The notes below the pieces were generated by a model that saw only the letters and a program-made list of their open reading frames with translations, did not search any database and was not told the DNA's origin. A stretch of DNA of 64,000 bases from Bacteroidota bacterium (GTDB lineage Bacteria; Bacteroidota; Bacteroidia; B-17B0; Aurantibacillaceae): positions 62,001 through 126,000 of the forward strand of contig JAJONO010000003.1 in NCBI GenBank assembly GCA_021323535.1, read 5' to 3'. Made by a program: the position numbers and the translations under genes. Positions 879-47,871 of this stretch are shown piece by piece. Numbering within the stretch: position 1 is the first letter of the stretch; every line of letters starts with the position of its first letter.

Positions 879-2363
879 ATGGCATTTGGTTTTAATCCAA
901 AACACGAACAGGAAATTTTGCTAAAAGATTGCACAAGGGAAGAATTTTTAATACTGGCCGTTGAAACAGCAAAAAGACTTGAGTGGGACATACATTACAT
1001 AAGTAACACGGGTTTTATTGCTTATACGAATAACCGAACGTTTTCATGGAATAGGGAAGTCACTATTAAAGTGATGGAGAACAGCGCTTTGTTAAGGAGC
1101 GCTTCTACCGGTTCGGAAATGGCCGACTGGGGAAAGAATAAAAGAGTCATTGAAGATTTTATAACTATTTTCGAAAGAAGTAAAGCGGAACTTCCGAAAC
1201 AGGAACTGCACAACCGTTACAATGCTATGCAGGAGCATCTTTCAGGCATGCAGGAAGATCTTTTACAAGCTCCCCCTCCTACAGCAAAAGAAAAAATCAG
1301 GAATTTCTTTTCCATTTTTAAACCCGTTGAAGGATACTTTATTACTCCTGTTATCATTAATGTGAATGTGTTGATCTTCCTTGTGATGATCTCAACAGGA
1401 ATTAATTTTCTTTTCCCAAATGGCGAAAGTCTTCTCAGGTGGGGCGCTAATTTTAAACCCTATACCCTTGAAGGCGAATGGTGGCGAATGATTACAAGTA
1501 CATTCCTGCATTTTGGAATTATTCATCTTTTAATGAACATGTACGCCCTTCTTAATGTGGCTATTTTACTGGAGCCCTTATTGGGCGCTAAGAAATTTGC
1601 AACGGCCTATCTTCTTACGGCGTTAACTGCCAGTGTAACCAGTTTGTGGTGGAACGACTATGGTGTGAGTGCAGGAGCCTCGGGCGCAGTGTTTGGCATG
1701 TATGGTGTTTTTCTTGCACTGCTAACAACACATCTTATAGAAAAAACAACACGGAAAGCGTTACTTACAAGCATTGGTGTTTTTATTGTGTATAATCTTG
1801 CTTTTGGACTGCAATTAAAAATTGTTGACAACTCAGCGCATATCGGAGGTTTAATTGGAGGGATCCTAATTGGTTATGCCTTTGTACCTGCCCTTAAAAG
1901 CCGCGAAAATAAAAGAGTTGAAGGTATAAGTATTACAATTGTAACAGTTGTTATTGTAATGGCGGCCATTTTTGCATGTAGTAAAATCCCAAATGATATT
2001 GTTATCTATGAGAAGAAAATGAATTTATTTTCAGAAAGAGAAAAAACAGCCCTGGCAATTTATAATCTTCCTGATAATGCTCCACGAGACACTGTTTTAT
2101 TCAGACTTAAAGAACAAGGTATACAAAAATGGAGAGAGAATATTCAATTACTGGATAGCGTAAATCGTCTTAAAATTCCATCCAATCATAAATCCCAAAA
2201 CGATAAATTAAGAGCTTATTGTGAACTTCGTATCAAAGCCTATGAATGGATTTACGCGGCTGTTTGGGAAGATACAGATAAGTACAAAGATTCAATTCAC
2301 TTTTACAACGTACAAGTGGAACAGAAGCTTAATGAACTGAACGGAAATACGAAAACTGATTAA
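879..2363 (+). CDS. Rhomboid family intramembrane serine protease
   Basis: A 494-residue protein. Residues 1-110 form a soluble domain of unknown type, followed by a rhomboid core at about 155-345. The core shows H211-x4-H216-x3-N220 in the second helix, the nucleophile Ser268 in GASGAVFG and the catalytic His321 in NSAHIGG, so it should be active. A seventh hydrophobic stretch at about 350-365 is followed by a roughly 125-residue soluble tail. Rhomboids cut transmembrane helices of substrate proteins within the inner membrane. The soluble domains on both sides are larger than in GlpG-type proteins and may recruit substrate. The DUF6157 gene begins 11 nt downstream, so co-transcription is likely. 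Confidence 0.9.
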   Translation: MAFGFNPKHEQEILLKDCTREEFLILAVETAKRLEWDIHYISNTGFIAYTNNRTFSWNREVTIKVMENSALLRSASTGSEMADWGKNKRVIEDFITIFERSKAELPKQELHNRYNAMQEHLSGMQEDLLQAPPPTAKEKIRNFFSIFKPVEGYFITPVIINVNVLIFLVMISTGINFLFPNGESLLRWGANFKPYTLEGEWWRMITSTFLHFGIIHLLMNMYALLNVAILLEPLLGAKKFATAYLLTALTASVTSLWWNDYGVSAGASGAVFGMYGVFLALLTTHLIEKTTRKALLTSIGVFIVYNLAFGLQLKIVDNSAHIGGLIGGILIGYAFVPALKSRENKRVEGISITIVTVVIVMAAIFACSKIPNDIVIYEKKMNLFSEREKTALAIYNLPDNAPRDTVLFRLKEQGIQKWRENIQLLDSVNRLKIPSNHKSQNDKLRAYCELRIKAYEWIYAAVWEDTDKYKDSIHFYNVQVEQKLNELNGNTKTD

Positions 2364-2374
2364 CCCGGATAGTT

Positions 2375-2788
2375 ATGAAAATACATACCACCAACTACAT
2401 TAACACTTTCATTGAAATTGCCGAAGACTCTCCTGTAGACTTTGGCGAAGTGCCACCGGTAAAGGACGAGAAATCGATTGCCAGAATGCAGTATGAAATT
2501 CTGGAGAAACATCCTTATAAATATACTTCCGATGATGTTTTATTTATGGTGTTTGCCCAACGTAATGATCTTACAAAAAGTGAGCTGAAAGAGGCGAGAG
2601 AAAAATTCTTTTCAAAAGGACAACCATGCTTCAGATCATCGCCTTTAACAAAACGTTATGGCTGGGGTATTCATAATGATAAGGACGGGAAAATTGCCAT
2701 GTACGGATCCGAGACAAAGGAGTATAAAAAATACTGTTCCGATAAAAAATTACCTTGCGTAAAAGCAATGAGGTCAAAAAGGGCTTAA
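2375..2788 (+). CDS. DUF6157 family protein
   Basis: A 137-residue soluble protein that matches my memory of DUF6157: an N-terminal HTTNYINTFIEIAEDSP segment, a central SDDVLFMVFAQR segment and a C-terminal RYGWGIHNDKDGKIAMYG segment. The function of the family is unknown. The Lys/Arg-rich C-terminus ends in a TAA stop whose last A is the first base of the next gene's ATG (TAATG), so translation of the two is probably coupled. No signal peptide or membrane segment is visible. Confidence 0.8.
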   Translation: MKIHTTNYINTFIEIAEDSPVDFGEVPPVKDEKSIARMQYEILEKHPYKYTSDDVLFMVFAQRNDLTKSELKEAREKFFSKGQPCFRSSPLTKRYGWGIHNDKDGKIAMYGSETKEYKKYCSDKKLPCVKAMRSKRA

Positions 2789-3351
2789 TGTCTGATTTCA
2801 ATTTTAAAATACGATCAAAGAAAATTATTTCGGAATGCTTTAAAGAAGCAGGCATACATGATTTCTATGAAGCGTGTTCTTACATCACTTCTCTTCCGTA
2901 TAAGCGCAACGAAGATAAAAACGATCTTACAACGGTTTTCTCCGACGGTTTTGGGACCTGCAGCACCAAACACGCCGTCTTAAAACAATTAGCAATGGAA
3001 CACAAAAAGGATGAGGTTAAACTTATGCTAGGCATTGTGAAAATGAGCGGGGTTAATACTCCAGCAGTTAGATCAACGCTTGAAAAAAACGGATTGACAT
3101 ATATTCCCGAAGCGCATAACTATCTTTTTGTTAATGGAGCGAGGATCGATTGTACGAAGAAGAATTTTGTAGTTACTGAGAATGATATTTTCCTGCAAAC
3201 CGAAATACAACCGGAAATGATCACGGAATTTAAAGTGGGATATCATCAGCGTTTCCTTCTGAAATGGCTGAACGAAAACCCAACTATTAAATTGTCTTTC
3301 GAAGACTTGTGGAAGGTGAGGGAAGAATGCATTAAGGATTTATATAATTAA
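2788..3351 (+). CDS. Transglutaminase-like protein of unknown function
   Basis: I chose the ATG at 2788, which overlaps the upstream stop by one base, over a TTG at 2755 that would lie inside the DUF6157 gene. The 187-residue product has a Cys in FGTCSTKHAVLKQLA, a later His in PEAHNYLFVNG and an Asp in ARIDCTKK. That order of Cys, His and Asp resembles the transglutaminase/papain-fold triad, where the Cys sits at the start of a helix. I infer a transglutaminase-like fold, without homology evidence beyond these motifs. It has no signal peptide and is presumably cytoplasmic. It lies in a five-gene plus-strand run with tight spacing. Confidence 0.6.
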   Translation: MSDFNFKIRSKKIISECFKEAGIHDFYEACSYITSLPYKRNEDKNDLTTVFSDGFGTCSTKHAVLKQLAMEHKKDEVKLMLGIVKMSGVNTPAVRSTLEKNGLTYIPEAHNYLFVNGARIDCTKKNFVVTENDIFLQTEIQPEMITEFKVGYHQRFLLKWLNENPTIKLSFEDLWKVREECIKDLYN

Positions 3352-44626: not shown

Positions 44627-44657
44627 TTTGTTTAATTCAGGTAAAAATATATCTTAG
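44627..44657 (+). promoter_or_regulatory. Predicted promoter of the Lys-tailed VOC gene
   Basis: TTTG (44627-44630), a 19-nt spacer and TATCTTAG (44650-44657) fit the Bacteroidota layout with one mismatch in the -7. The ATG at 44682 follows after 24 nt. Confidence 0.45.
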
Positions 44658-44681: not shown

Positions 44682-45290
44682 ATGGCAAAGAAAGCAAAAA
44701 AGAAACCTGCGAAAAAAGCAGCGAAAAAAATAGTTAAGAAAGCAGCGAAAAAATCTGCTCCCAAAAAATCTGCTCCAAAAAAGGCAGCAAAAAAAGCAAC
44801 GAAAAAACCAGCAAAAAAAGCAAGTAAACCCGCGGTGAAAAAAGCTGAACCAAGAACAAGATCAATTCATCCGTATTTAACCTTCGCAGGAAACTGTGAA
44901 GACGCGTTTAATTTCTACAAATCAGTTTTCGGTGGAAGCTTTGGTTATGTGGGAAGATTCAAAGATATGCCGCCTAGCGACGGACAATCGGTTCCAGAAT
45001 CGGAATTAAACAAGATCATGCATATTTCATTAGCAATTGGTGGCGGCACAACCTTAATGGGAAGCGACAGCTCTGATTCATTCGGGCACGCTACTGTGAT
45101 AGGGAATAATTTTTCGATATCACTTAACGCGGTGAGCCAGGCTGATGCAGATAAAATGTATAGTGGTCTTTCTGATGGCGGTATTTCAACAATGCCAATG
45201 AGCAAAACATTCTGGGGTTCATATTTCGGGATGCTGGTTGATAAATTCGGAATTAACTGGATGATCAGCTTTGACGAAAAACCTATGTAA
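44682..45290 (+). CDS. VOC/PhnB-like protein with histone H1-like lysine-rich N-terminal tail
   Basis: A 202-residue fusion. Residues 1-54 are almost only Lys, Ala, Pro, Ser and Thr, with 26 lysines, in KKxA/KKAAKK repeats like bacterial H1-type proteins and the AlgP tail. Residues 62-202 form one PhnB-like VOC module: SIHPYLTFAGNCEDAFNFYKSVFGG, then KIMHISLAIGGGTTLMGSDS and the closing FWGSYFGMLVDKFGINWMISFDE. The VOC part usually binds a metal or small molecule, and the tail would bind DNA or RNA by charge. Tail codons are AAA/AAG rich, so slippage during replication could vary its length. A strong terminator follows. Confidence 0.88.
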   Translation: MAKKAKKKPAKKAAKKIVKKAAKKSAPKKSAPKKAAKKATKKPAKKASKPAVKKAEPRTRSIHPYLTFAGNCEDAFNFYKSVFGGSFGYVGRFKDMPPSDGQSVPESELNKIMHISLAIGGGTTLMGSDSSDSFGHATVIGNNFSISLNAVSQADADKMYSGLSDGGISTMPMSKTFWGSYFGMLVDKFGINWMISFDEKPM

Positions 45291-45310
45291 TTCTATAATT
45301 CAAAATATGG

Positions 45311-45348
45311 AATGCCATATAGCACAAACTATATGGCATTTTTGTTTT
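45311..45348 (+). terminator. Terminator of the Lys-tailed VOC gene
   Basis: A perfect 12-bp stem, AATGCCATATAG (45311-45322) with CTATATGGCATT (45329-45340), closes a CACAAA loop and is followed by TTTGTTTT. The T-run touches the stop codon of the minus-strand gene at 45347. Confidence 0.9.
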
Positions 45349-45723: not shown

Positions 45724-47871
45724 TCATAATTTTATTCCAATTACGCAAACATCGTCTACCTGTTCGTTCACGCCTCTCCATTCTTCGAAGCGTTGGTCGA
45801 GAATGTTTTTTTGTTCTTCTTCTGGTTTGTCAACCACAGAAAGAATGAGTTCATGGAGCTGTTTATACTTGAATTTTTTGCCTTTTGGTCCGCCAAACTG
45901 GTCAGCATATCCATCGGTAAACAAAAACAGGGTAGAACCTTTTAGCAACTGAAATTCATGAGTTACAAAGTTTTTTGCTCCGTCAAATTTTCCGATCGGT
46001 TGTTTATTGGCAGTGATCTCTTTCAATTCTCCGTTTTCGATATACCATAAAGGATTATTAGCACCCGACCATTTTACCGACACTTCTTTTGAATTTTGAC
46101 CTGAACCTTGAATACTTACCATTGAAATATCCATTCCATCTTTTACTTCCGCTCCCGATCGTTCAAAGGTTTCTATAACAAGCTCGCGTGTTTTGTCGAG
46201 TATTTTCCCCGGATCTGTAATTCCAAATTCTTTTACCGTTCGATGCAGAGCGTTGCTGCAAACCACACTTACCATAGCTCCCGGAACTCCGTGCCCGGTA
46301 CAATCGGCGGCGGCGATTAAAATAAGTTCAGGCTTATTGGTTGTAGGTTCGGAACCTTTAACGTTTAACGAACTTCCCACTACCTCCATCCAATAAAAAT
46401 CTCCCGCTACAATATCTTTTGGTTTATACAATACAAAACTCCCGGGAAGATGCTGTTTCACAGATTCTACCGAAGGTAAAATGGCTTCCTGTAATCGTTT
46501 TGCGTAAGTAATACTGTCTGTTATCTCTTTGTTTTTTTCTTCGATAATGTGTTTTTGTTGTTTGAGTTCAAGGTTAGTTTGTTTACGAAGCATGTTACTT
46601 CTGATAACAAAAAAGATCATAACAATTGATATCAGCATTCCTATAACAAAAATGACAATTACCTTATTAGCGCTATCAACCTGCGCTCTCCTGCTCTCTA
46701 AAGTTAATTGTGACAGCTCCTGCTGATTTTTGAGATCCTGTATTTCTTTTTCTTTTTTCTGGTTTTCAAGTTTGGTTCCAAGTTCGGCCACTTTGGAAGC
46801 AAGATTGTTTGTAGAGGCCTTTGTGGAGTTAAGCAGATCAGCCAGGATTTGCGATTCGGCATTTTTAATTTCAAGCTCCGTGTTTTTCAATGTCAGCAGT
46901 ATTACAGGCAATGTTACATATCTGAAATTTATTTCAACCCAGCCATGATTTTCACCTTCATCGTCCATTACCGGTTCAGTGTCAAGATTTATCCCTGCCC
47001 TGATAATATTTCTGCTTTCCTCACTTACCAGATTTATGCTTGAGTCCCTGTACCGGTCAATAACAGATTTTAATTCCAGTCCCGAATACCTTCCGCTTCG
47101 GGGTCTGCTTTCATCAATTCCCCAGATTTCATTTGTTATGGCTTCATAACTTAAAAGATTATTCATTTCGCTTTGCGAAAGTGAGTCGGCCTGCGCTTCC
47201 GCGATCCCCTCATTTACAGATATAATGTGCCGTCTGAACTTTTTAACGTATGATGCGGCCGTATCTGTCAAAGATTTCAGTTTCATCGCTTTCTGGTAAT
47301 GAACATTTGTGCTCTTATCGGGAATTTGTTCAAATGCTTCGTAAAGCTGTTTGTTTTTTAGTTGTAATCTTGAGACAGAACTTTCAGTTTGTTCTGTGTT
47401 TTTAGAAAACGAATTCGCAATCCCGATCATTCTTGATGCCGAACTGCCTATTCCTCCAATGACAAGGGAACCGAGGAGGAAAAGCACCATGATGATGTGA
47501 AACTGAGCAACTGTCCTTGTTCCCGATCTGAAAAGCTGCACAAGAGAAATGGGTAGTATAATAAATAACGAGGTGAAGATCCAGATGTTGAACAGAACTC
47601 CACCAAAGGGCCAATGCATTGTTTTAAAAAGGAAGGCAAGACTGGTAAGAAAAACAATAAATAACCTGTAGATAACAGCAATCATTTTGCCTTTCTTGTT
47701 TTCGTGAATGAACCAAAGTGGCAGATAAAACAGTAGAAAAGAAACTGTTCCAAAAATCAATAACAGGGATGCGCCCGGCCAGTGCATCACTTTGAACAAG
47801 GTTCCAATTGAAAGAAATGCCGCGGCAAGCCAGCCGGATACTAAAACAGATGAAGGAATCTTCTTTTCCAT
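45724..47871 (-). CDS. Membrane SpoIIE-type protein phosphatase with GldL-like N-terminal membrane region
   Basis: A 715-residue protein. The N-terminal about 140 residues hold five or so membrane helices with the motif FKxMHWP twice (26-32 and 82-88), as in gliding-motility protein GldL. A roughly 260-residue extracytoplasmic helical region follows, then a transmembrane helix near 410-430, a coiled coil ending EITDSITYAKRLQEAILPS and a SpoIIE PP2C domain (about 490-715). The metal-binding segments AAADCTGHGVPG, KDGMDIS and FTDGYADQFGG are intact, so it should dephosphorylate Ser/Thr, usually of an anti-sigma-factor antagonist. The coiled-coil linker is nearly the same as in the protein at 53318. 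Confidence 0.88.
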   Translation of the reverse strand: MEKKIPSSVLVSGWLAAAFLSIGTLFKVMHWPGASLLLIFGTVSFLLFYLPLWFIHENKKGKMIAVIYRLFIVFLTSLAFLFKTMHWPFGGVLFNIWIFTSLFIILPISLVQLFRSGTRTVAQFHIIMVLFLLGSLVIGGIGSSASRMIGIANSFSKNTEQTESSVSRLQLKNKQLYEAFEQIPDKSTNVHYQKAMKLKSLTDTAASYVKKFRRHIISVNEGIAEAQADSLSQSEMNNLLSYEAITNEIWGIDESRPRSGRYSGLELKSVIDRYRDSSINLVSEESRNIIRAGINLDTEPVMDDEGENHGWVEINFRYVTLPVILLTLKNTELEIKNAESQILADLLNSTKASTNNLASKVAELGTKLENQKKEKEIQDLKNQQELSQLTLESRRAQVDSANKVIVIFVIGMLISIVMIFFVIRSNMLRKQTNLELKQQKHIIEEKNKEITDSITYAKRLQEAILPSVESVKQHLPGSFVLYKPKDIVAGDFYWMEVVGSSLNVKGSEPTTNKPELILIAAADCTGHGVPGAMVSVVCSNALHRTVKEFGITDPGKILDKTRELVIETFERSGAEVKDGMDISMVSIQGSGQNSKEVSVKWSGANNPLWYIENGELKEITANKQPIGKFDGAKNFVTHEFQLLKGSTLFLFTDGYADQFGGPKGKKFKYKQLHELILSVVDKPEEEQKNILDQRFEEWRGVNEQVDDVCVIGIKL

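Follow-up and report, generated by a model that had tools for sequence, protein, structure and literature searches.

A VOC-fold protein with a lysine-rich, histone H1-like tail, one of several lysine-tailed proteins in a Bacteroidota lineage

Introduction

VOC proteins of the PhnB/YjdN type (PF06983) include E. coli YjdN and PA1353 of Pseudomonas aeruginosa (structure 1u6l), neither of which has a lysine tail. The VOC fold is also that of the mitomycin (MRD), bleomycin and phenazine (EhpR) resistance binders, and the passages of PMC3175449 that concern such binders describe no tail. In EhpR the ligand is held by aromatic stacking without catalytic residues, and the same passages raise the possibility that PA1353 and other uncharacterised relatives clasp planar aromatics between two aromatic side chains (PMC3175449).

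Disordered tails of Lys/Ala/Pro repeats are found on AlgP, PhaF, HupB/HupS and actinobacterial TopA. Studies of TopA and HupB (PMC7398561, PMC5676037) reportedly describe lysine repeats in both proteins. Peptides of KPAA repeats bind DNA in vitro, and AlgP, whose tail is rich in KPAA, localises to polyphosphate (polyP) granules and has been proposed as a link between these granules and chromatin (passages of PMC9239181). Lysine-rich stretches of P. aeruginosa EngA and SrmB and of E. coli YihI and Rnr bind polyP according to parts of PMC12077175 and PMC12345225, and the two polyP-positive proteins in the former hold nine lysines in 20 residues, with four in a row.

Here we analyse a gene from a Bacteroidota bacterium (Aurantibacillaceae; assembly GCA_021323535.1) that lies in a stretch of 64,000 nucleotides of contig JAJONO010000003.1 (positions 62,001 to 126,000), called the window below; genomes, loci and families compared with it carry our own handles (G, L and f numbers). 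The encoded protein is a novel combination of already known parts. It has the same whole VOC domain as YjdN (33% identity over 144 columns) and PA1353 but differs from both in its lysine tail; the tail resembles those of AlgP and similar proteins, which sit on nucleoid or DNA-working proteins, whereas here it sits on a VOC domain and polymer binding is only predicted.

Results

The gene (44682..45290, + strand, stop included) starts with ATG and encodes 202 amino acids in two parts: a lysine-rich histone H1-like tail, residues 1-56 (44682..44849, + strand), delimited by lysine composition and low pLDDT, and a PhnB/YjdN-type VOC domain, residues 61-200 (44862..45281, + strand), delimited by PF06983 and by a structural match to 1u6l. 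A preliminary description, made from the letters and their translations, had counted 26 lysines in residues 1-54. We confirmed this count and found no Asp or Glu in that segment, while residues 57-202 hold 7 lysines. Lysine density in the tail reaches a maximum of 11 per 20 residues, and the longest lysine run is three. Because the matches to PF06983 (E 4e-10, 40.7 bits against a cut-off of 24, profile positions 3-115 of 116) and PF00903 (E 2.8e-6, above cut-off) both cover residues 62-195, the VOC module is whole and reaches almost to the stop codon, as had also been claimed. The NCBIfam equivalog model for YjdN (NF007537) scored 68.6 bits and did not reach its cut-off of 122; by these profile scores the protein is a relative of YjdN, not a YjdN equivalog. 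The curated H1-like model hist_H1_lk_Burk (NCBIfam) also stayed below its cut-off (18.5 bits against 80), and a Pfam search of the protein returned no match to an H1-like family. Judged from its sequence, the likeness of the tail to bacterial histone H1-like protein is one of composition only.

AlphaFold2, run with a 46-row alignment, modelled residues 1-50 at a pLDDT of 56-66 and without secondary structure. The VOC fold was predicted confidently, the ten-residue blocks from residue 61 scoring 88-96 with the exceptions of residues 131-150 (71 and 80) and the last two residues (65). The closest solved structure was PA1353 (1u6l; sequence E 3.2e-26), which matched residues 61-200 of the model with Z 17.5 and an rmsd of 2.0 over 130 residues; other solved PhnB/YjdN-type matches were 3oms (Z 15.4) and 1u7i (Z 15.2). 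The MRD, bleomycin and EhpR binders are much less similar in structure to this VOC domain than PA1353 is, and the matches to 1kll, 2a4w, 2a4x and 1ewj had Z values of 9.3-9.8.

The preliminary description had also called the VOC part an enzyme; the VOC fold stands, and the classical metal site is weakened. The four metal ligands of glyoxalase I are H5, E56, H74 and E122 of GloA. Motif register and strand order, read without coordinate superposition and with a GloA profile alignment of 18 columns that was not significant, place P64, M126, S145 and M194 at these positions, and none of the four is a usual ligand. A canonical VOC metal site in the window protein appears unlikely on this register. 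A relative, 5kef, was solved with zinc according to its title, and the NCBIfam label for YjdN is metalloprotein. Two aromatic positions are strongly conserved: F93 is Phe in 18/18 tailed rows and Phe or Tyr in 82/83 untailed rows, and W178 is kept in 18/18 tailed and 82/83 untailed rows. In the AlphaFold2 model, read without coordinate superposition, F93 follows strand 2 and W178 precedes strand 7. The passages of PMC3175449 give no residue names for PA1353, and F93 and W178 are candidates, assigned by position, for the aromatic pair that those passages envisage. We regard it as possible, though somewhat doubtful, that the VOC domain holds a planar aromatic compound rather than performing classical metal catalysis.

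To place the tail in its lineage we searched 150 genomes, the window's own and 149 relatives. Any match to the VOC protein was found in 73 of the 150 (own included), and a match running from the tail into the VOC domain in 18 of the 149 relatives, namely 5 of the 39 same-genus genomes (G001-G039), 12 from other genera of the family to which the window's genome belongs (f1) and G137 of a different family, f6. Homologues with the same order of tail and VOC domain, for which the preliminary description had proposed a search, are found within the lineage, one of them broken. This copy, of G084 (L024 / L052), has two stops inside and is either a decayed gene or an assembly error; it was left out of the intact tailed set, which comprises 17 relatives and the window copy (n = 18). 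In this set the tail measures 42-99 residues up to the VOC core, varying between relatives in the length comparison that had been suggested, and has 34-47% Lys and at most one acidic residue. The VOC part has a net charge of -2 to -7 in tailed copies and, since it is acidic, the positive charge sits in the tail. The charge and composition of the tail are kept across the 18 copies and its sequence is not, which suggests a tail under selection for charge, with a drifting sequence. Conservation of the VOC core is alike with and without the tail.

Between the start of the tail and the VOC core, all 18 intact copies lack an ATG, and a further ATG 5' of the tail occurs only in L011. In the window copy the sole nearby alternative start is an in-frame GTG at residue 52 (44835), which could in principle initiate a nearly tail-less product; L012 and L019 lack ATG, GTG and TTG alike between the start of the tail and the VOC core. 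To look outside the lineage, we scanned contigs of one genome per species (84,980 species), in a search that may omit records near the window's genome and shows the absence of the tail, not its frequency. Among the best 80 loci of at least 168 confirmed relatives, 79 had no tail, their VOC core following directly on a Met; the sole tailed one, L107, is the same contig as that of G066, and L118, a tail-less locus among the matches listed, has an in-frame stop. Homologues that lack the tail and start at a later Met had been named beforehand as speaking against the fusion. Such homologues prevail outside the lineage, and no intact tailed orthologue has a later ATG of this kind before the core: the gene includes its tail, and the tail-VOC fusion is lineage-specific and conserved.

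In trees of these proteins (the first with 106 rows; the second without 26 of them, 23 near-copies or close relatives and 3 long-branch rows) the 18 tailed rows fell into one group of 15, all from f1, and one of 3, drawn from f1 and f6. Twenty further untailed loci were fetched, of which five were recognised by motif and placed in the tree. The starred branches force two changes and the AU test of a single origin was borderline (p = 0.0508); two separate gains of the VOC tail are likely, more so than a single origin, on these alignments. The VOC protein of L172, a 5.7-kb contig labelled Streptomyces sp. ISL-12, groups with Chryseobacterium (82/93, not starred), and this contig may be a contaminant. 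The preliminary description had expected copy-number change by slippage from the simple codon make-up of the tail. This went unsupported, the longest exact repeat in the tail DNA lying within the range of 200 synonymous-codon shuffles in 17/18 genes; in the exception, L021, p was 0.045, uncorrected. Lys codons are mixed AAA and AAG, Ala codons are mixed as well, and the longest A-run per tail is 7-8 bases. Length differs among species, and the tail DNA shows no sign of recent copy-number change.

An own promoter and terminator, also claimed for the gene, are supported by a promoter-like box and a hairpin. The candidate -7 element of Bacteroidota type, TATCTTAG (44650..44657, + strand; motif TAnnTT[AT]G[TC]), stands downstream of a weak candidate -33 element, TTTG (44627..44630, + strand), 19 nt before the -7 box; the assignments of TTTG (44627) and of the box (44650) follow the Bacteroidota-type promoter consensus. 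The motif begins 28-33 nt ahead of the tail ATG in 11/18 intact tailed genes and, counted 20-45 nt before the ATG, in at most 3 genes in 500 dinucleotide shuffles, a post hoc test for which the motif had been picked after inspection of the same sequences. A scan for an E. coli-type sigma-70 promoter gave 5 sites (3.9 ± 2.4 in shuffles), none of them rightly placed, and a promoter of that type finds no backing here. Downstream, at 45309..45342 on the + strand, lies an intrinsic terminator-like hairpin with a 14-pair stem followed by a T-rich stretch, which also scored on the - strand (45340-45311); the region has 6 terminator-like sites compared with 1.1 ± 1.0 in shuffles.

A conserved operon was sought by comparing 19 tailed loci (window and 18 relatives), and the commonest neighbour group occurred in 6 only. 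This group consists of mixed signalling proteins, SpoIIE-type by eye, that lie 3' on the opposite strand in the window, L039, L040, L042, L044 and L045, directly adjacent in 4 of the 6; the VOC gene has its own terminator, and we attach no meaning to the arrangement. In the window, the neighbour at 45724-47871 (- strand) is a 715-residue membrane protein, one end of which resembles a SpoIIE-type phosphatase by eye; it is convergent with the VOC gene. In 5 of the relatives' 18 loci the tailed VOC gene is likewise followed by a related signalling protein.

Searching the window's genome for the codon pattern of KKxAKK gave 50 matches forward against 28 in the backwards control and, because of these 28, many single sites are due to chance. 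Sites were counted only where the frame holds a lysine-rich stretch: of the 50 frames, 30 were read, 15 belong to the tails of VOC and peroxiredoxin, and the remaining 5 went unread. A protein-level search with the tail alone returned only the VOC tail itself and a weak match (E 0.11) at the SWIB locus, and the codon pattern was the more informative of the two. Lysine-rich tails or proteins occur at nine places in the genome, VOC included. The others are adenylate kinase (L058, 8251-9303), topoisomerase I (TopoI) and ribosomal Thx (L094, 1429-1575), all with C-terminal tails; HemD (L061, 7114-8220) and a START_2 protein (L080, 709-1650), both with N-terminal tails; a SWIB protein; a peroxiredoxin; and a free lysine-rich peptide of 36 residues. 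TopoI and the free peptide were named by eye and the six other hosts besides VOC by Pfam. In same-family relatives, two further loci (L064, 7744-9720, in G065; L072, 3876-5855, in G074) encode a two-domain pyruvate/2-oxoacid:ferredoxin-type oxidoreductase with a lysine-rich N-terminal tail, an assignment supported at L064 by Pfam POR and POR_N.

Adenylate kinase, HemD and the peroxiredoxin were each searched in 60 genomes (own, 36 same-genus and 23 other-family). Adenylate kinase has the lysine-rich C-terminal extension in 28/28 readable loci of the 30 same-genus loci, own included, L257 and L265 not being recognised, and the extension is also present in the genome of L107. Among the 23 other-family genomes, judged by the extent of the match, the match stops before the tail in 20, spans it in G091 (f6), runs to residue 230 through stops in G109 and is absent in G104; the frames of G093, G094 and G106 are longer than the match. 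HemD has a lysine-rich N-terminus in 29/30 same-genus loci, own included, with L284 unreadable, and in 23/23 other-family genomes its match starts at query residue 104-122. We found no lysine-tailed adenylate kinase in such a setting in a search limited to the open-access literature.

The 26 same-genus peroxiredoxin loci (own included), sorted by eye, take several forms. In 15, tail and peroxiredoxin form one ORF (the frames of L210 and L211 end in peroxiredoxin and count as fused), and in 8 a separate lysine-rich ORF lies beside the peroxiredoxin (L212, L213, L218, L224, L225, L227, L232 and L234). Two encode endonuclease III, a lysine-rich linker and peroxiredoxin in one ORF (- strand; L220 of G002, 1501-2850, and L222 of G027, 1495-3030; Pfam HhH-GPD and AhpC-TSA), and L230 runs off its contig. 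Three of four other-family loci are tail-less and L236 was not recognised. In the window's genome nth stands just upstream of the tailed peroxiredoxin. By their gene order, the free, fused and three-part nth loci resemble stages by which a free H1-like gene became joined to the genes beside it. A literature search limited to open-access papers returned no fusion of endonuclease III, a lysine-rich segment and peroxiredoxin in Bacteroidetes. Since many proteins of this genome, unrelated to VOC, have a comparable tail, the tail is, as far as sequence comparison goes, a recurrent appendage of the lineage and not a device particular to VOC.

Discussion

We tentatively favour the view, to which we give somewhat less than an even chance, that the disordered lysine-rich tail of this one protein anchors its small ligand-binding VOC domain on a polyanion, for which chromosomal DNA is the most likely candidate. 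That the protein would bind polyanions in vitro is highly probable, and its location on the nucleoid in the cell is an evenly balanced matter. The tail would bind DNA electrostatically in the cell, and the VOC domain would grip a planar aromatic ligand with the candidate residues F93 and W178 on either side of it, in the manner of the mitomycin, bleomycin and phenazine binders. The tail would put a scavenger or carrier beside DNA; a scavenger of DNA-active aromatics held there would fit both halves of the protein. DNA is favoured as the target on the strength of TopoI, SWIB and endonuclease III, which have such a tail or linker too. Adenylate kinase, HemD and the POR-type oxidoreductase carry such tails as well and have no known role on DNA, and a DNA-specific reading does not explain them.

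The main rival to nucleoid DNA as the target is polyP or RNA. The tail would tether the protein to polyP or to RNA/ribosomes, and the tailed enzymes would gather on polyP granules or condensates, perhaps in starvation. Tails on adenylate kinase, HemD and ribosomal Thx suit such a broad polyanion target, and the genome carries ppk (above the Pfam cut-off); a tail with up to 11 lysines in 20 residues may be set beside AlgP on polyP granules (passages of PMC9239181) and beside the lysine-rich stretches of EngA, SrmB, YihI and Rnr (parts of PMC12077175 and PMC12345225). Its longest lysine run is three, however, against four in the examples of PMC12077175, and the endonuclease III linker and the TopoI and SWIB tails point to DNA. 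We consider polyP or RNA tethering rather unlikely, and still more improbable that the tail has no specific target, being tolerated or serving solubility, expression or stability while the VOC domain works as in tail-less relatives. Functionally unrelated hosts with a tail at either end, the wide range of tail length (42-99 residues) with drifting sequence, a VOC core equally conserved with and without it and the patchy occurrence of tailed VOC (5/39 same-genus relatives) would all agree with such an idle tail. Against it, widely diverged copies retain the charge and composition of the tail, and every readable adenylate kinase (28/30) and HemD (29/30) locus has a lysine-rich tail, which would be unexpected under neutral drift.

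The chain combines a VOC pocket with a tail that probably binds polyanions, and its gene is solitary, with a promoter-like box and a terminator of its own. Such a protein could also be a sensor or regulator whose VOC domain, on binding its ligand, would govern the hold of the tail on DNA or RNA. Yet neither an allosteric route nor sequence specificity is obvious for a tail that is disordered and acts electrostatically, and no target operon is conserved (commonest neighbour group in 6/19 loci), and we hold this regulatory reading to be very improbable.

The tether to a polyanion, with DNA as the likeliest partner, extends to a broader and more speculative idea, which we think has a modest chance of being correct: a portable H1-like tail would be a general address tag that holds unrelated enzymes on the nucleoid, or on a polyanion condensate linked to it, and free H1-like genes would spread the tag by fusing with adjacent genes. 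Such a spread is suggested by the locus of nth, the lysine-rich protein and peroxiredoxin, which occurs in free, fused and three-part forms, and the enzymes so addressed may include VOC, peroxiredoxin, adenylate kinase, HemD, the START protein and others. For annotation, the warning is that a histone H1-like tail can mark lineage rather than function. The more interesting lead is the presence of such tails on housekeeping enzymes across the genus. If the tail is an address tag, a charged polymer would place protective and metabolic enzymes on DNA or polyphosphate; this, if true, would be a general, membrane-free way to organise the bacterial cytoplasm.
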